This document shows, one piece after another, positions 21,808-26,538 of a DNA stretch of 26,538 bases; position 1 is the first letter of the stretch, and each line of letters opens with the position of its first letter. Below the pieces are notes generated by a model, which was not told where the DNA came from, made no database searches, and saw nothing but the letters and a program-made list of their open reading frames with translations. The position numbers and the translations under genes are program-made. The stretch is from a virus: positions 1-26,538 of the IMG/VR virus record IMGVR_UViG_3300043464_001005. One strand, 5' to 3'.

Positions 21808-22032
21808 ATGGCCGAATGGGGCGAGGTTGAAGGCAAGCCGATCTGGTTCCACAAGGGAGGGTGTTACGAAACACGGTTCCTTGTGATGGATGACGGTTCC
21901 GTGAGCATTCGCGTGGATGCCGGAACGCACGGCGTGATCGGGCAGCAGACAGGCATCGGGGTGCGTCTAGTTCCTGAGTCTCTGCCGAGCCTGACGCAAT
22001 TCTTGGCGAAACACTGCCATCAGGAGGTTTGA
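21808..22032 (+). CDS. Small early protein (74 aa)
   Basis: Starts MAEWGEVEGKPIWFHKGGCY; a compact beta-rich body (RFLVMDDGSVSIRVDAGTHG, IGVRLVPESL) and a helical end (LTQFLAKHCHQEV). GAGGTG ribosome site and 8-base gap from the upstream stop. No recognised family. Confidence 0.75.
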   Translation: MAEWGEVEGKPIWFHKGGCYETRFLVMDDGSVSIRVDAGTHGVIGQQTGIGVRLVPESLPSLTQFLAKHCHQEV

Positions 22033-22033
22033 C

Positions 22034-22243
22034 ATGCGTTGGAATGCTGATGCCTTGCGTGAAATGCCAACCCTTCGCACCGGGCAGTGTTGTAGCTGCA
22101 AGGTGGACACCGGCAACGTGCGGGTGTGGGTGTGCCGCGTGGCTGGCGGCGTAACGGTCGAACAATATCAACCGGACACGGGGCGATGGGAAACCGTGGC
22201 GGGTGGATGCAATGGGGAGGTTGACGATGAGATTCTTGGTTGA
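22034..22243 (+). CDS. Small early protein with a CCSC motif (69 aa)
   Basis: Starts MRWNADALREMPTLRTGQCC; CCSC (residues 19-22) precedes beta-strand sequence VRVWVCRVAGGVTVEQYQP, and the end is acidic and overlaps the next gene by 17 bases. GGAGG ribosome site. Possible metal-binding mini-protein; function unknown. Confidence 0.75.
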   Translation: MRWNADALREMPTLRTGQCCSCKVDTGNVRVWVCRVAGGVTVEQYQPDTGRWETVAGGCNGEVDDEILG

Positions 22244-22403
22244 AATCGACTGCGACAACGCAGCCTTTGAGGATGACCCTGCCTGTGAGGTGGCGAACAT
22301 CCTGCGGAAGGTCGTGCGGGCCGTGGAAAAGGACGGCAGCCAGGAAGGCCGGCTCGCTGATTCAAACGGCAATACCTGTGGCTTTTACAAGTACGAGGAG
22401 TGA
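22227..22403 (+). CDS. Small conserved phage protein (58 aa)
   Basis: Start ATG 22227 (GGGAGG, 7 bases). MRFLVEIDCDNAAFEDDPAC, EVANILRKVVRAVEKDGSQE, GRLADSNGNTCGFYKYEE. I recognise a widespread small phage family with the layout F.V.IETDNAAF......E.ARIL...A......G....L.D.NGN.VG. Function unknown. Confidence 0.85.
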   Translation: MRFLVEIDCDNAAFEDDPACEVANILRKVVRAVEKDGSQEGRLADSNGNTCGFYKYEE

Positions 22404-22404
22404 C

Positions 22405-22614
22405 ATGGGCGAGCCTGCAACATGGACTGCCTCCAACGGTAACGTCTGGCGGTTCATTCGCACGGAGCAAACAGTTGGTGTGGAGGGATTCAGCCCCGAG
22501 CATCAGCGGAAAATGGTGTACGTGGACCGCATATGCAGGGTGACGCGGCCAGACGGCACGTTTTATTACGACTATGAGATGATCGATTGCAGAATCTTTC
22601 ACGGGGAGGTGTGA
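22405..22614 (+). CDS. Small early protein (69 aa)
   Basis: GAGGAG ribosome site; the ATG follows the upstream stop by 1 base. Starts MGEPATWTASNGNVWRFIRT, ends TFYYDYEMIDCRIFHGEV. Aromatic-rich (W, F, Y) and beta-strand-like. No recognised family. Confidence 0.75.
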   Translation: MGEPATWTASNGNVWRFIRTEQTVGVEGFSPEHQRKMVYVDRICRVTRPDGTFYYDYEMIDCRIFHGEV

Positions 22615-22615
22615 C

Positions 22616-22894
22616 ATGGTGGCAATCACCAGCAAGTATCACGGGCCGACGAATACACGCGGCTCATGTGTTCGGGCTACGGCCAACGGCCATATGGTCA
22701 CAGTGCCATGGGCTAGCGAGCTAGACAGCGAAGCCAACCATCGGGAGGCGTGCAAGCGGCTCTGCGAAAAGCTGGGCTGGGATGCGGATCGGTTCTTCGG
22801 TGGTGCGATGGACGATGGGAGATGGGCATGGGTGCCCGTCTTCCCGTACGAATGGGAGCAGCGACAAAAGGAGGCGACACATGCCAACAGTTGA
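22616..22894 (+). CDS. Conserved small phage protein (92 aa)
   Basis: Starts MVAITSKYHGPTNTRGSCVR. The sequence fits a family I recall from many phages: ITTKY.GPTN.RGSRI.A......V.....LN.E.NH..A...L..KL.W. Function unknown. The end (KEATHANS) and stop are supplied by the 24-bp junction element that also starts the next gene. GGGGAGGTG ribosome site upstream. Confidence 0.85.
   Translation: MVAITSKYHGPTNTRGSCVRATANGHMVTVPWASELDSEANHREACKRLCEKLGWDADRFFGGAMDDGRWAWVPVFPYEWEQRQKEATHANS
22871..22894 (+). repeat. 24-bp junction element, copy A
   Basis: GAGGC-N5-ATGCCAAC-N-(A/G)TTGA. It holds a ribosome site, the next start codon and the current stop codon. Three more copies lie at 24966, 25150 and 25331. 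Confidence 0.85.
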
Positions 22895-23303
22895 ACAGTC
22901 GGTACACATGACCACGGTATCGAAGGAGGTGGCCGAAGCGTACGCGGATTGCTGGGACTATCACCCAAAAGTATCCGCACCATACATTGATGTCCCTGCC
23001 TGGGAGGCGATGGAACAGCGGCGAAATCTGGAGTTCTTCGCGTCCCGCTGGCTGCCGCGGGATGACGCTCAGTGGATCATGGAACAGTGGGTGAAGGGCT
23101 ACAACGACTTTGCCCCGAGCGTGATCGGCCGGCTCCCCGAGGAGGCGCTGATTCGCATAGCCCGAGAGGGCAGCGTCTGCCTGTATGTGAAGTTGCCATA
23201 TGGGTGCAAGGCGAAACTTCCGACTGCCAAGCGGGTGCTGGCGGATGAGCGAGACGAGGTGTTCCTGCAATCGTCTCGGTGTGTTCGGTACTGGTGGGAC
23301 TAA
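22881..23303 (+). CDS. Early protein, largest of the small array (140 aa)
   Basis: Starts MPTVEQSVHMTTVSKEVAEA; then YADCWDYHPKVSAPYIDVPAWEAMEQRR, FFASRWLPRDDAQWIMEQWVKGYNDFAP, and CLYVKLPYGCKAKLPTAKRVL, with helical ends. Trp-rich throughout. AAAAGGAGG ribosome site. Start and the upstream stop overlap inside a junction element. No recognised family. Confidence 0.8.
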   Translation: MPTVEQSVHMTTVSKEVAEAYADCWDYHPKVSAPYIDVPAWEAMEQRRNLEFFASRWLPRDDAQWIMEQWVKGYNDFAPSVIGRLPEEALIRIAREGSVCLYVKLPYGCKAKLPTAKRVLADERDEVFLQSSRCVRYWWD

Positions 23304-23314
23304 GGAGGTGCGGA

Positions 23315-23485
23315 ATGCAATGCCCCGTCTGTGACTGTTGCGAGGTGTCGTTTGCCGGTGTTCTCGGTGACGTAGGTCATGCGAGATGCCGGGATTGTGG
23401 GATTGTTTACACGTTTGACCCGTCATTGGAGGACGAGTGCTATGTGGGCAGTACGGACACGGAAGAGGATCATTGCGACGTTTGA
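23315..23485 (+). CDS. Zinc-ribbon mini-protein (56 aa)
   Basis: Starts MQCPVCDCCEVSFAG; C3-x2-C6 and C25-x2-C28 (RCRDCGIVYTFD) form a classic ribbon, followed by an acidic tail (LEDECYVGSTDTEEDHCDV). It would bind zinc and could be a transcription or nucleic-acid-binding regulator. TAAGGAGG ribosome site overlaps the upstream stop. Confidence 0.8.
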   Translation: MQCPVCDCCEVSFAGVLGDVGHARCRDCGIVYTFDPSLEDECYVGSTDTEEDHCDV

Positions 23486-23570
23486 TAACCGATGGGAGGC
23501 GGAAGAATGGATGCGGACTTGGCGTTCGCTCCATGGACATAAGTGTTACCTAGTGCGTACGGAGAATTGA
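23442..23570 (+). CDS. Very small early protein (42 aa)
   Basis: Starts MWAVRTRKRIIATFDNRWEA; helix EEWMRTWRSLHGH and strand KCYLVRTEN. It overlaps the zinc-ribbon gene by 44 bases in another frame, with a GGAGGA ribosome site, so it looks translated. The FDNRWEAEEWM..W...G..CY.V pattern resembles a small fold used by phage accessory proteins. Confidence 0.65.
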   Translation: MWAVRTRKRIIATFDNRWEAEEWMRTWRSLHGHKCYLVRTEN

Positions 23571-23571
23571 G

Positions 23572-23856
23572 ATGAGCCGAGAGTACAACATTCGTCATGT
23601 GGTGCGGCAGCATGCGGATGCCGATACGCGAGCCAACTCCGCAGAGTTCTCCTACACACCCTCGCAGGCGTGCTTGGTGTGGTGGGGCCTGTATCTGCTG
23701 TCCATGGAGTTGCGTAAGCCCATCCCCGGCGGATGCTGGGAAGATTACCCCGATACCATGCGTTGCTATGCGGACGCTATCGACTGGATCCGCACCGCCC
23801 AGGTGCAACTCTCGGCCCACGCTAGCAAGCACAAGTTGGAGTTGAGCAAGGCATGA
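23572..23856 (+). CDS. Small early protein (94 aa)
   Basis: Starts MSREYNIRHVVRQHADADTR; then TPSQACLVWWGLYLLSMELRKPIPGGCWED and a helical end AIDWIRTAQVQLSAHASKHKLELSKA. The hydrophobic VWWGLYLLSM could be a buried helix or a short membrane contact. GGAGAATTGAG ribosome site. No recognised family. Confidence 0.75.
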   Translation: MSREYNIRHVVRQHADADTRANSAEFSYTPSQACLVWWGLYLLSMELRKPIPGGCWEDYPDTMRCYADAIDWIRTAQVQLSAHASKHKLELSKA

Positions 23857-24044
23857 AATACCGAGACGGCATGACCGAAGACGAGGAGCGCGAACCGCTG
23901 GCCGAGTGTGAACGGCTGGACCAGTGCTATGCCGATGCAGACGCAATGGCTGCCTCGGCCAGCGAATGCAGCGACGATGAGGAGTTCGATTATTTCGATC
24001 CAGTGCGTGACGGTTGGGTAGACCGCAACACTGGTCGTCCGTGA
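23853..24044 (+). CDS. Acidic mini-protein (63 aa)
   Basis: Starts MKYRDGMTEDEEREPLAECE; strongly acidic (many E and D), with FDYFDPVRDGWVDRNTGRP at the end. The ATG overlaps the upstream TGA. The charge and length are typical of DNA-mimic or inhibitor proteins, but nothing specific is visible. Confidence 0.65.
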   Translation: MKYRDGMTEDEEREPLAECERLDQCYADADAMAASASECSDDEEFDYFDPVRDGWVDRNTGRP

Positions 24045-24058
24045 ACGGAGGATGACGA

Positions 24059-24271
24059 ATGAGCTTTCGACCGATGGTGAAGGTGGGCAATGAGTGGGCT
24101 GGCAATGGCATTCGGTTTGCCACCCGTGAAGAGGCAGAGTCTTCCGCCCGTGATCTGTACGGACGGTGGACGCTGTGTGTGGATCACCGGGCAGATGAGT
24201 CCGATGATCCGGTAAACTGTGAGTGGGATCCGTCCCGTGGCAATGTGCATTTGGAGGTGGTCAATGCCTAA
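24059..24271 (+). CDS. Conserved small phage protein with ESDDPVN (70 aa)
   Basis: Starts MSFRPMVKVGNEWAGNGIRF; ATREEAESSARDLYGRW, CVDHRADESDDPVNC, EWDPSRGNVHLEVVNA. I recognise a widespread phage protein family (Y.P......W..N...F.T..EA......L..RW......R..ESDDPVNY). Function unknown. GGAGG ribosome site. Confidence 0.85.
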   Translation: MSFRPMVKVGNEWAGNGIRFATREEAESSARDLYGRWTLCVDHRADESDDPVNCEWDPSRGNVHLEVVNA

Positions 24272-24515
24272 CACCAATGTCAGTCAGAGCCACTTCGCCA
24301 AGGCTGCTGCCGGCAAGGCGGCGACGTTTTGCGAAGAGGCCAAGAGCGAGGCAAGCCTAGCCGTTATTGCCCGCATGGTACTGGAGGAGTTCGACACGGC
24401 CCCCAAGTCACAGGAGTACCTTGCATTGGCGGCTGCGTTCCGCAAGTCGCATGGCAAGAAAGACTGGGCGATAGTGGACGACATTGTCCGTGAGTTCAAA
24501 TGGTTTCGGAGGTGA
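24264..24515 (+). CDS. Small helical early protein (83 aa)
   Basis: Starts MPNTNVSQSHFAKAAAGKAA; helices with AVIARMVLEEFDTAPKSQEYLALAAAFRKSHGKKDWAIVDDIVREF. All-helical, mixed charge. TTTGGAGGTGG ribosome site; overlaps the upstream gene by 8 bases. No recognised family. Confidence 0.75.
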   Translation: MPNTNVSQSHFAKAAAGKAATFCEEAKSEASLAVIARMVLEEFDTAPKSQEYLALAAAFRKSHGKKDWAIVDDIVREFKWFRR

Positions 24516-24519
24516 CGAC

Positions 24520-24810
24520 ATGACATCCGGTGACCTCGCCAAGATGGCCCGTGCCGCAGCCGTCATTCGGTCTGTGGTCGGCCAGGACTTTGAGTGCCAC
24601 ACCCGGGAGGAATGGGACGGTGAGTACGGCAAGGGTGCCTTGCTCATCCTGGAACACTACCTTGGCGATCCGCTCTGGCCCTATGTGAACTACGACGGCG
24701 GGCAATACGACAAGATCGAACAGTTGTCCGATGCGTTGTCGGCTGCGGGGTTCTGGGTTGAAGACTGCACCGGGTGGTACTCCGGCGTGTATGAGAAGGA
24801 GGTGGTGTGA
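24520..24810 (+). CDS. Small early protein (96 aa)
   Basis: Starts MTSGDLAKMARAAAVIRSVV; the C-terminal half has HTREEWDGEYGKGALLILEHYLGDPL, NYDGGQYDKIEQLSDALSAAGFWVEDCTGWYSGVYEKEVV. The pattern of EQLS..L...GFWVED...W.S..Y is close to small phage proteins I have seen, unnamed. CGGAGG ribosome site. Confidence 0.75.
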   Translation: MTSGDLAKMARAAAVIRSVVGQDFECHTREEWDGEYGKGALLILEHYLGDPLWPYVNYDGGQYDKIEQLSDALSAAGFWVEDCTGWYSGVYEKEVV

Positions 24811-24989
24811 TGCAAAACTTTATTGTCGTTGATGCGACCGACCGCATCTGTTCGTACTGTTCTGATCGGGACCATGCGGAGCGCATTGCTGATCGGGAAG
24901 CCGCAACGCAGAGGATGGACATGTTTGTTTACGCGGTCACTGAGTTGTCCGCGCATAAGCACGAGGAGGCCAGCGATGCCAACCATTGA
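24810..24989 (+). CDS. Small early protein (59 aa)
   Basis: MQNFIVVDATDRICSYCSDR, DHAERIADREAATQRMDMFV, YAVTELSAHKHEEASDANH. A beta-helix-beta layout with a CSYC pair. TGATG overlap with the upstream gene, AAGGAGG site. The last residues, from the GAGGC on, are the junction element and are shared with the next gene's start. Confidence 0.75.
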   Translation: MQNFIVVDATDRICSYCSDRDHAERIADREAATQRMDMFVYAVTELSAHKHEEASDANH

Positions 24990-25173
24990 TTGGACTGCTG
25001 ACCAAGGCGAGGAGGTTCGGCAGTTGATTCTGGACCGCATCGAATACCTCACCGAGAGCGAGGGGCGTGCTGTCCGCAGGAATGATACTTCCGATCTGCA
25101 ATTTATTCGCAGGATGTTGGAAGACATGCGTGTGGTTCTAAAAGACCTGGAGGCTGCATATGCCAACGATTGA
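24976..25173 (+). CDS. MPTI-type helical mini-protein 1 (65 aa)
   Basis: Starts MPTIDWTADQGEEVRQLILD; helices IEYLTESEGRAVRRNDTSDL and FIRRMLEDMRVVLKDLEAAY. It reads as an antiparallel helical hairpin. Paralogue-like start with the next two genes. GAGGAGG ribosome site in the junction element. Function unknown. Confidence 0.75.
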   Translation: MPTIDWTADQGEEVRQLILDRIEYLTESEGRAVRRNDTSDLQFIRRMLEDMRVVLKDLEAAYAND

Positions 25174-25354
25174 ACTAACCAAGGCAGAACTCAAAGAAGC
25201 CTGGGGTTGCCTGACTGTTGAGCAGGAGAACGTGACCGAGATGTTGCGGCGATACCCCAAGGGCGACCGGGACCATGACTCATACGCCAAGGCGGCTCGC
25301 CTATTGGATTCCATCCTTTACAAGATTGCGGAGGCCAAGCATGCCAACCATTGA
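25160..25354 (+). CDS. MPTI-type helical mini-protein 2 (64 aa)
   Basis: Starts MPTIELTKAELKEAWGCLTV; helices EQENVTEMLRRYPKGDRDHD and SYAKAARLLDSILYKIAEAK. Same MPTIELT start as the next gene and same junction, but a diverged body. Probably a helical hairpin; function unknown. Confidence 0.75.
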   Translation: MPTIELTKAELKEAWGCLTVEQENVTEMLRRYPKGDRDHDSYAKAARLLDSILYKIAEAKHANH

Positions 25355-25508
25355 GCTGACCGACGAGCAGGCCGAGGAGTTGAAGGACTTGTTGGACAGG
25401 GAGATATGCGAACTAAAGGCGGGGTTCGATGACAGCGAGTTCTTTGATGAGCATCGACACCGCTACGAGGTGCTGCGGGAAACCTTGGAACTACTGGAGA
25501 TTGCGTGA
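25341..25508 (+). CDS. MPTI-type helical mini-protein 3 (55 aa)
   Basis: MPTIELTDEQAEELKDLLDR, EICELKAGFDDSEFFDEHRH, RYEVLRETLELLEIA. It resembles the widespread small phage protein type 'ELTDEQAE.L...L..E...L'. Third of the three in-line copies with the MPTI start. Ends in the second shared junction word (GGAGATTGCGTGATG). Confidence 0.75.
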   Translation: MPTIELTDEQAEELKDLLDREICELKAGFDDSEFFDEHRHRYEVLRETLELLEIA

Positions 25509-25711
25509 TGCTCCCGCTCAAAGTTTTGTCGGAAGCCGAGGCAGTGCAGGAATTGCGGGACATGATCGACGGGTTTGACATAGACGATCTGGCTCACATG
25601 TGCAGCGAACTCACCACCTACGAGGGGCTGCGTGTCGTTGTGCGGATGGGTGGTGTTGATTCGGATGCCTGGGTGGACGGTCAATGTCTGGCCGACCAGC
25701 AAGAAACATAA
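25508..25711 (+). CDS. Small early protein (67 aa)
   Basis: ATG 25508 overlaps the upstream TGA; a GTG 3 bases earlier is possible. Starts MLPLKVLSEAEAVQELRDMI; DGFDIDDLAHMCSELTTYEGLRVVVRMGGV, then DSDAWVDGQCLADQQET. Helix-strand mini-domain, acidic. GGAGATTGCGTGATG at the start is repeated at the next gene. Unrecognised. Confidence 0.7.
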   Translation: MLPLKVLSEAEAVQELRDMIDGFDIDDLAHMCSELTTYEGLRVVVRMGGVDSDAWVDGQCLADQQET

Positions 25712-25723
25712 GGAGATTGCGTG

Positions 25724-25975
25724 ATGACCTTTGAAGACTGGCGAGCGACACAGCATCAGGCCACGCAAGGTCTGGAGCATGACATTCTGGAAGACCACTT
25801 CGGCTACGTGCCAGACAACGTACAGTCGGTGTGGGTCTATGAGGTGGGCGTGCTGGCTGGTCTAAAGGACGGCCAGTACTACACGCACATCGGACGGTCG
25901 GAATACACGGGCACGCTGGACGATATTGAGCGTCGGCTGTGGGAAGATCACGCGAAACAGGAGGTGGGCACATGA
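25724..25975 (+). CDS. Small early protein (83 aa)
   Basis: Starts MTFEDWRATQHQATQGLEHD; then GYVPDNVQSVWVYEVGVLAGLKDGQYYTHIG and SEYTGTLDDIERRLWEDHAKQ. AGGAGATTGCGTG precedes the ATG, the same 15 bases as at 25496-25510. Alpha/beta with aromatic strands. No recognised family. Confidence 0.7.
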   Translation: MTFEDWRATQHQATQGLEHDILEDHFGYVPDNVQSVWVYEVGVLAGLKDGQYYTHIGRSEYTGTLDDIERRLWEDHAKQEVGT

Positions 25976-26166
25976 ACGCAGAGATCGCTGCCGTCTATGA
26001 GACGTACGATACCGCCCGTCTTCGGCTGACTGAACTGGCACCATGCCCCAAGTGCTGCCCGCCACGGCACCCCTGTAGTCCCGGCGAGTACATCCGCGGG
26101 TGCGACATCCTGCGATGCAAGAAGTGTGGTGGTGATGGATTCCTTATCAAATGGGAGGATGAATGA
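25972..26166 (+). CDS. Zinc-binding mini-protein (64 aa)
   Basis: Starts MNAEIAAVYETYDTARLRLT. The Cys motifs C25-x2-C28 (CPKCC) and C49-x2-C52 (CKKCGG), with extra C35 and C44, give a zinc ribbon with DILRCKKCGGDGFLIKWEDE. The CGGxG motif resembles DnaJ-type and small phage zinc proteins. ACATGA overlap; AGGAGG ribosome site. Confidence 0.8.
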   Translation: MNAEIAAVYETYDTARLRLTELAPCPKCCPPRHPCSPGEYIRGCDILRCKKCGGDGFLIKWEDE

Positions 26167-26538
26167 TGGCACATACACCTGGGCCGTGGTGGATCGACGA
26201 GGACGGTGACTACCTGTGCATATGCGAGGGCGAAGTCAACGAGTACGGCGAGCGAGAAGAGGTCGCGACCCTCGCTTGCAATCGCCCTTCACTCCTGCTT
26301 TGCCAGCCAGCCAATGCCCGCCTCATCGCCGCTGCCCCTGAGTTGCTGGATGCGTTGCGGAAAGCTGTTGCCGCATTGGAAATCTTGGATGAGGACAGTG
26401 ATGTCGCGGGGTGGCGCAACCTAGACGCCACCTATGTGGACGCCACTATTGCCGGCCTGCTCTGCCATCTGGAGCAGTGCATCGCCAAGGCGGAGGGAGT
26501 AACCATGGAGGGAACCAATGGCAAGGAGCGATCATTGG
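26166..26538 (+). CDS. Partial conserved phage protein (HTPGPW family), open at the right edge
   Basis: Starts MAHTPGPWWIDEDGDYLCIC, with RPSLLLCQPANARLIAAAPELLDALRKAVAA. This is a widespread small phage protein with the layout HTPGPW.....IANARLIAAAPELLEAL..L. Function unknown. ATG at 26166 has GGGAGG 7 bases upstream; ATG 26163 also possible. No stop in 124 codons to the window edge. Confidence 0.85.
   Translation, partial: MAHTPGPWWIDEDGDYLCICEGEVNEYGEREEVATLACNRPSLLLCQPANARLIAAAPELLDALRKAVAALEILDEDSDVAGWRNLDATYVDATIAGLLCHLEQCIAKAEGVTMEGTNGKERSL
26518..26538 (+). CDS. Possible next gene start, overlapping the window edge
   Basis: GGAGGGAACCA precedes ATG 26518, in another frame than the HTPGPW gene, and reads MARSDHW to the edge. 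Overlaps of this kind are common in the array, but only seven codons are visible. Confidence 0.3.

Follow-up and report, generated by a model that had tools for sequence, protein, structure and literature searches.

A 24-bp gene joint in the small-gene array of an uncultured tailed-phage clade

Why would the same 24 bp join four different pairs of neighboring genes in one phage genome? The question is raised by IMG/VR virus record IMGVR_UViG_3300043464_001005, of which positions 1 to 26,538 were analyzed (26,538 nucleotides (nt), hereafter the window). A window-wide pattern search found GAGGC-N5-ATGCCAAC-N-R-TTGA in four exact copies, all on the + strand, at 22871-22894, 24966-24989, 25150-25173 and 25331-25354 (copies A to D). 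An initial interpretation of the letters alone (the sequence-only reading) took this 24-mer for a ribosome site, start and stop in one, and for a mobile or amplifying junction that would let genes be added to an array. On comparison with relatives, the 24-mer proves to be one well-kept version of a gene joint that is general in an array whose genes are shuffled, and its reading as a mobile element is not supported. It is probably one allele of the joint in an interlinked chain of small genes, which are exchanged at their joints.

The joint and its occurrence in relatives

Each copy consists of a Shine-Dalgarno site, an ATG and, 11 nt beyond the ATG, the TGA of the upstream gene, giving a 14-nt overlap. 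At all four copies the upstream protein ends in ...AN(S/H/D/H)-TGA and the downstream protein starts with MPT(V/I)(E/D). The combination of ribosome site, start and stop described from the sequence is present at every position. We did not find a fifth copy in the window, even with three mismatches allowed. Dinucleotide shuffles (n = 100) gave a chance expectation of 0.02 copies and never reached four, which rules out chance as the source of all four together. The gene at 22034-22243 contains one further ATGCCAAC at 22064, in frame within MRWNADALREMPTLRTG, but no other part of the joint.

The copies lie in an array of small, mostly overlapping, co-directed genes (21808-26538, + strand), of which 21 were called, the last being cut by the window end. 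The array is collinear in relatives. Copy A joins gene F19 (22616-22894), a match to phrog_3199 (unknown function; E-value 3.9e-14), to gene F60 (gene A, 22881-23303; 140 amino acids, starting MPTVEQ), which supplies its stop. Copy B joins F62 (24810-24989) to M2 (gene B, 24976-25173; family F1, MP.IDW type), copy C joins M2 to F84 (gene C, 25160-25354), and copy D joins F84 to M1 (gene D, 25341-25508; family F1, MPTIELTDEQ...LLEIA).

IMGVR_UViG_3300042452_000420, a viral contig of 59.5 kb, matches the window with an identity of 0.99986 in the 7198 nt that were compared; it encodes a P22-like portal protein and a large terminase on the opposite strand. The window belongs to an uncultured clade of tailed phages of about 60 kb. 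No cultured relative was found by megablast of window positions 2001-26538, by the terminase or by an M1 protein. Scans by gene D, by the DNA pattern and by three other genes yielded 29 non-redundant contigs, and one further scan added none. Near-copies with identical junction proteins (L014, L020, L026, L027, L029), the window's own phage (L005) and other phages (L037, L040, L062) were left out. The comparison set holds 810 genes (20 to 36 called per relative stretch) in 231 families, 663 junctions and 479 distinct gene adjacencies. Genes were called with a purpose-made simple caller that accepted overlaps of up to 45 nt, and errors in start assignment are possible.

The scan by gene D matched 25 viral contigs, some of them near-copies of one another. 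All 25 loci carry a start of the form ATGCCAAC[G/C]ATTGA with an overlapping TGA that closes the upstream frame, and the upstream genes differ, although this count is biased because the scan used the peptide MPTIELTD (the DNA pattern scan used the string itself). The start belongs to the matched gene itself in 24 of the 25. In L022 the matched gene starts with ATGAAGACGATTGA, likewise with a 14-nt overlap, and ATGCCAACGATTGA sits on the preceding gene. Among 22 non-redundant contigs reached via the three other genes, the core ATGCCAACNATTGA is present in 16 and absent from six, all of which have a member of family F1 with an in-phase stop at 8-17 nt. Over the stretches examined in the 29 contigs, the exact 24-mer occurs in nine and ATGCCAACNATTGA in 23. 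The core was found at 26 junctions behind 16 upstream families. Gene content between junctions therefore varies while the junction persists, as the sequence-only reading had expected. The GAGGC part is only the Shine-Dalgarno site and is variable in relatives: among 23 starts, G occupies position -7 in 16 and A in the other seven, while C occupies position -6 in 14. The M1/M2 helical-hairpin family bears the form ATGCCAACNATTGA, which F84 and a chimeric gene carry as well; F60 at copy A has a close form.

Copy A requires more caution. Its start scores 12/15 against the M1 consensus, as high as or lower than five of 621 other distinct starts (which score at least 12), and column shuffles among those 621 starts reached a best score of at least 12 in 2.45% of 2000 runs. 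Because some of the high-scoring starts may be distant M1 relatives, copy A is probably, rather than provenly, a genuine copy of the joint and not a chance match.

Outside the clade the string has little standing as a widespread element. The DNA pattern matched 47 stretches in viral contigs, 24 from this clade and the remainder from other phages or by chance. In 257 Gb of bacterial genomes, GGAG-N7-ATGCCAAC-N-ATTGA matched 66 stretches at many different genes, about twice the approximately 30 estimated for 17 specified bases at even base composition. We rejected a widespread element, since this 17-base form is near chance level and scattered over many different genes. Several of the bacterial matches look like starts of ribosomal protein S12 genes. 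L040 and L062 are another kind of contig (53% guanine plus cytosine) in which MPTIDAIIAAAFLW genes stand behind the same 14-nt joint with differing upstream tails.

Exchange of genes at the start joint

The 24-mer is one dialect of a general joint rule in the small-gene array. Of the 663 junctions, 464 overlap by at least 1 nt and a further 147 have gaps of 0-10 nt. The dialects are overlaps of 1, 4, -1, 8 and 14 nt, with TGATG at 173 junctions, ATGA at 84, 8 nt at 72 and 14 nt at 71. The 14-nt overlaps were found in 28 of the 29 contigs with 22 downstream families, and 40 of the 71 lie outside F1.

Junctions were compared between contigs after alignment on the start codon. For junctions that share only the upstream family, mean identity is 49-51% upstream and 30-31% downstream. 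For those that share only the downstream family, the values are 28-29% and 55-58%; with both families different they are 26-27% and 28%. The same-upstream profile stays at about 50% to -13, is higher at -12 to -1 and falls to background (about 30%) from +4. The same-downstream profile is at background to -13, raised at -12 to -1 and 55-58% past the start. Omitting F1 and F0 leaves these profiles alike. Of the 93 upstream families, 69 are more alike on the expected side, as are 85 of the 92 downstream families. F84 is a clean individual example: the window and L006 are 29-39% identical ahead of its ATG and 87-97% identical in the 181 nt that follow. As identity switches around the start, the exchange point is the joint of ribosome site and start.

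Of 3126 pair instances, 3049 have the families in conserved order; of the 672 family pairs present in at least three contigs, 616 were never inverted. Genes are thus exchanged in place, not transposed or scattered. This order, the several dialects and the near-chance frequency in bacterial genomes speak against a mobile or amplifying 24-mer. What remains of the proposed role is cassette-like exchange at joints, without an autonomous mobile element.

Genes bounded by the joint on both sides, as the sequence-only reading had proposed, can be seen as filled and empty sites. M2 is joined straight to M1 by the same 14-nt joint in L008, L013 and L024. In the window F84 stands between them with a joint on each flank, and in L006 the order is F45-F84-M1, i.e., a different gene precedes F84. 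The neighboring interval has a second joint dialect, GGAGATTGCGTGATG, located in the M1 tail (25496-25510) and again before F12 (25712-25726; F12 itself is at 25724-25975, + strand). F34 (25508-25711) lies between the two copies. The corresponding site is empty in L007, L010, L021 and L028, where M1 is joined to F12 via GGAGATTGCGTG-ATG. It is filled by F34 in the window, by F11 in L025 and by two genes in L016, and in these three contigs the same 12-nt tail precedes every start there. In four further contigs F12 follows other genes, in three of them (3/11 F12 junctions) with a different tail. Upstream of M2, F62 stands between F8 (24520-24810; MTSGDLAK) and M2, and F8 and M2 are directly joined in L150; F8 has nine partner families over 14 called junctions.

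In 43 cases across the set, a single 11-mer recurs within one contig, at two junctions or more. Of the 583 pairs of consecutive junctions, 26 have identical 11 nt before both starts, with a gene of a different family from its neighbors in between. The shuffled expectation was 8.8 such pairs within overlap class (maximum 17 in 500) and 4.8 within contig (maximum 11).

At many joints, the codons of each gene also carry a signal of its neighbor. The Shine-Dalgarno core lies within the upstream reading frame at 523 of the 611 junctions having a core, its GAG is read as a Glu codon at 447 of 608, and the upstream stop lies wholly inside the downstream gene at 291 of 663. In all 24 junctions of family F2 (15 partner families), the gene lacks its own stop and receives one from the downstream gene; the same holds for all eight junctions of F19, the gene ahead of copy A (five partner families). 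In the window, F2 (24059-24271) has the tail LEVVN carrying GGAGGTGGTCA, and its stop comes with F61 (24264-24515; MPNTNVSQ), which brings ATGCCTAA in an 8-nt joint. Starts in phase 2 (8, 11, 14 ... nt; 162 distinct) have the stop within 14 nt in 78%. When synonymous codons are randomized this falls to 20% (maximum 30%, 300 runs), or to 40% (maximum 59%) when only overlaps of up to 45 nt are counted.

Codon choice in F1 (37 members) departs from clade usage. Ile codon 4 is ATT in 33/33 members with Ile, vs. 26% clade usage, and Pro codon 2 is CCA in 29/36, vs. 17% usage. These counts are not biased by the peptide scan, with the exception of the M1 genes of L050 and L051, which were found by the DNA pattern (the L051 contig was also reached via F2). 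A naturally broken joint was found in L017 (5630-6001), where the start is ATGCCAACGATTCGA without the TGA (ATTCGA) and the upstream M2 runs 18 codons further. Gene 11 of L145 is an M1 gene in which MPKARRKRVR before IELTGEQ replaces the first residues; the upstream stop is at 17 nt.

Weighing the explanations

Several observations weigh against an interlinked gene chain with exchange at the joints. Random recombination followed by selection likewise leaves breakpoints at gene ends. Higher upstream identity was not seen in 24 of the 93 upstream families, and seven of the 92 downstream families are reversed. When shuffles preserve position in 1-kb bins, the 26 flanking pairs compare with 16.6 (maximum 29; 3/500 reach 26). 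Bins of 2 or 3 kb gave 13.6-13.9, and 26 was reached in 1/500 and 0/500; these shuffles are conservative because joints inherited by descent are also kept. The stop position in phase 1 (ATGA) equals the codon-shuffle expectation when overlaps are limited to 45 nt. A stop within 17 nt was found in 83% of 162 genes after open tails vs. 33% of 325 after self-stopping genes, but this contrast is partly circular because the caller accepts overlaps only up to 45 nt. In the two cases of an upstream gene with its own stop, the M1-type gene retains TTGA; therefore the supply of a stop need not be the sole constraint on the joint. Joints of unrelated gene pairs are more alike than column shuffles in most classes, but the full-width test for the 14-nt class is within the shuffles, and we do not rely on this excess because a shifted Shine-Dalgarno register can produce part of it. 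At copy A the neighbor does not vary: F60 occurs in three contigs, always after an F19-type gene. Thus, of what was claimed for copy A, its status as a joint copy is probable, while an exchange of neighbors there is not seen.

The strongest alternative is that nothing targets the exchange: recombination would be random and illegitimate, selection would keep whole genes and short overlaps, and the joints would be shaped by translation alone. This is the standard alternative in phage genomics, as put in PMC3233612 and PMC3029335. Constraints on the Shine-Dalgarno site and start alone give 42% identity at -12 to -1 of unrelated junctions, and a regional preference for one joint form accounts for part of the flanking-joint excess. 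The excess of flanking 11-mers over class-preserving shuffles, and more weakly over position-preserving ones, is harder to fit to it. So is the 12-nt tail shared before F12 by four empty sites and, after insertions, by three contigs, an argument limited by the three of 11 F12 junctions whose tail differs. The remaining excess fits recombination via joint similarity; strongly diverged duplication could also leave it. Since the excess shrank with position controlled, we slightly raised our estimate for untargeted exchange, which we consider a serious contender at somewhat less than an even chance.

A second alternative is tandem duplication followed by divergence, in which the joint would be the conserved 5' end of one duplicated family and the stop overlap would be inherited. 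Here the question is whether the four downstream genes are one family. B and D are paralogues, homologous along their length (hhalign E-value 1.6e-10) and weakly so without the first 12 residues (6.6e-5, probability 64%), compared with 0.024-0.84 for 11 unrelated control families trimmed in the same way. C aligns to D at 2.6e-8 with the N-terminus kept, but the trimmed value of 0.052 is among the controls. Trimmed A vs. D (0.61) is also among the controls, and only the first five residues of A align with M1. Family F6 also gives a weak signal (1.3e-5; 0.0012 trimmed). Homology along the whole length is thus shown for B and D but not for C and A. As neither C nor A can be demonstrated to be a paralogue of B and D, duplicating a single gene in tandem does not by itself account for the array. 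The protein bodies between copies are not all unrelated, as B and D show; C and A share only N-terminal residues in this comparison. D is a predicted two-helix hairpin (mean predicted local distance difference test score 94.8; helices at residues 8-27 and 32-54).

Duplication is also difficult to reconcile with upstream partners that change over 16 families, and with two phages that carry the M1 N-terminus on a body resembling part of another family's protein. In these (L022|16 and L150|13) the body matches the C-terminal part of L019|1 (54-55% over 40-41 amino acids), and in L051 a gene of family F16 starts with ATGCCAACGATT. The N-terminus encoded by the joint thus appears on other bodies, most clearly in the chimera; at copy A the sequence evidence for this is moderate. 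Duplication with strong divergence would likewise put the same joint on both flanks of a gene. On balance we regard duplication as an unlikely account of the joint as a whole.

A further-reaching form of exchange at joints would be a cassette system without a dedicated integrase. The dual-coding joints would be short homologies for an annealing protein, open tails would accept only incoming genes with a stop in the correct phase, and each insertion would leave copies of the joint on both flanks. We hold this version only tentatively, as rather doubtful, and lowered it slightly with the shrinking of the flanking-joint excess. That the joint is instead the recognition site of a site-specific recombinase, as in an integron, is very improbable: a PF00239 serine recombinase was found in 13/13 relatives searched and, as family F4, lies close to or at the array's 3' end in 21 of 32 loci, but nothing ties it to the joints, which are coding and come in many dialects sharing little beyond the Shine-Dalgarno site and ATG, in an array of nearly fixed order.

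For the interlinked chain with exchange at joints, which we favor, the steps are as follows. The end of the upstream gene holds, in its last codons, the ribosome site for the next gene, and that gene's first codons contain the upstream stop in another frame, as the junction counts show. Ribosomes finishing the upstream gene would thereby be placed to start the next, by analogy with known termination-reinitiation. Replacement, gain and loss of genes take place with an exchange point from about -12 to the ATG and in nearly fixed order, as the comparison of contigs shows. The most likely motor would be homologous recombination between co-infecting phages. An ERF-type annealing protein of the phage may assist, via short similarity of the joints or flanking homology, and selection would then favor intact overlapping frames. 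Recombination genes (serine recombinase, ERF and RecT) were sought in 13 relatives. An ERF-type protein was found in 13/13, the weakest match (E-value 5.2e-7) being just over the cut-off, and RecT in 0/13. For the ERF of phage D3, recombination of both identical and diverged DNA is described at about the level of lambda Red (PMC3945230). With ERF in all searched relatives and this precedent, exchange over short homology is plausible.

A Pfam scan of 18 of the 21 called window array proteins gave no match above the curated cut-off. At 26163-26537 is the start of a gene of the HTPGPW / ANARLIAAAPELL type, family F0, which is multi-copy in the arrays (56 copies in 28 loci, although single linkage may have merged different genes). 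Downstream of M1, ten contigs including L007 carry a gene of family F17 that we take to resemble DNA cytosine methyltransferases by its DLYCGAG motif.

Relation to known systems and meaning for phage mosaicism

The nearest counterpart is found in lambdoid phages, whose nin region is built as a chain of interlinked genes (Kroger and Hobom, 1982, as cited in PMC8022706). We applied the same junction comparison to the annotated genes of 16 phages, lambda and 15 taken from the 60 matches listed of 371 (167 genes, 36 families, 136 junctions). There too the breakpoint is at the start codon. Of the 14 junctions of the lambda NinF family, 10 show the tail GAGGAAGAAGACG, followed by four partner families, and in 11 an 8-nt stop comes from the downstream gene. 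Both systems are chains of small overlapping genes with mosaic content, likened here by their junctions and not gene by gene, and the principle of an interlinked chain with exchange at gene ends is thus known in kind. They differ in that ATGA dominates in nin (68/136) but not in the clade (84/663), and nin has 8 nt in 19/136 and a single 14-nt case, vs. 72 and 71 of 663. The clade works at a larger scale, with dialects that include many 14-nt overlaps and with visible empty and filled sites.

Two kinds of short sequence at phage gene boundaries are comparable. The boundary sequences conserved in lambdoid phages are short, intergenic and proposed as targets of module exchange (Susskind and Botstein, 1978; Clark et al., 2001; as cited in PMC3233612). 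As in the clade, one such sequence stands at the junctions of different gene pairs; in contrast, the clade joint consists of tail codons, ribosome site, start and stop, and the phase match of tail and head is countable. Start-Associated Sequences of cluster K mycobacteriophages are 13 bp long, lie upstream of the start in 11-19 copies per genome, contain AGGAG, recur at the starts of different families and may enclose the upstream stop (PMC3203893). They share with the clade joint a short sequence repeated at the starts of genes of different families, but the conserved core in the clade lies after the start and belongs to the coding sequence of both genes. The 13-bp GGGATAGGAGCCC has no match in the window with up to two mismatches allowed.

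Coupling by termination and reinitiation is described for overlapping stops and starts with a Shine-Dalgarno site in the upstream gene (PMC6728339, PMC10666635). In prokaryotes, distances outside -8 to +6 are reportedly rarer than the 4-nt overlap by a factor of ten or more (PMC10666635), whereas in the clade the 14-nt overlaps (71) nearly match the 4-nt class (84). The array also invites comparison with another system of single genes. Integron cassettes are single genes gained and lost in a one-orientation array, and the clade array likewise gains and loses single genes in one orientation; its order, however, is nearly fixed and its joints are coding (no search for an integrase or attC was made). 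Our literature search found no description of this clade or of downstream-supplied stops as an exchange rule.

Whether phage mosaics break at gene ends by targeted exchange at boundaries or by random exchange and selection is an old open question, and the two are discussed as open rivals in PMC3233612 and PMC3029335. The 29 collinear arrays, with their 479 adjacencies and their empty and filled sites, are a setting in which the two models give different, countable predictions. They also show a simple rule of compatibility that lets small genes be fitted into an operon with overlapping, and probably coupled, translation kept. If the cassette version were true, the joint would be selected for exchangeability as well as for translation.

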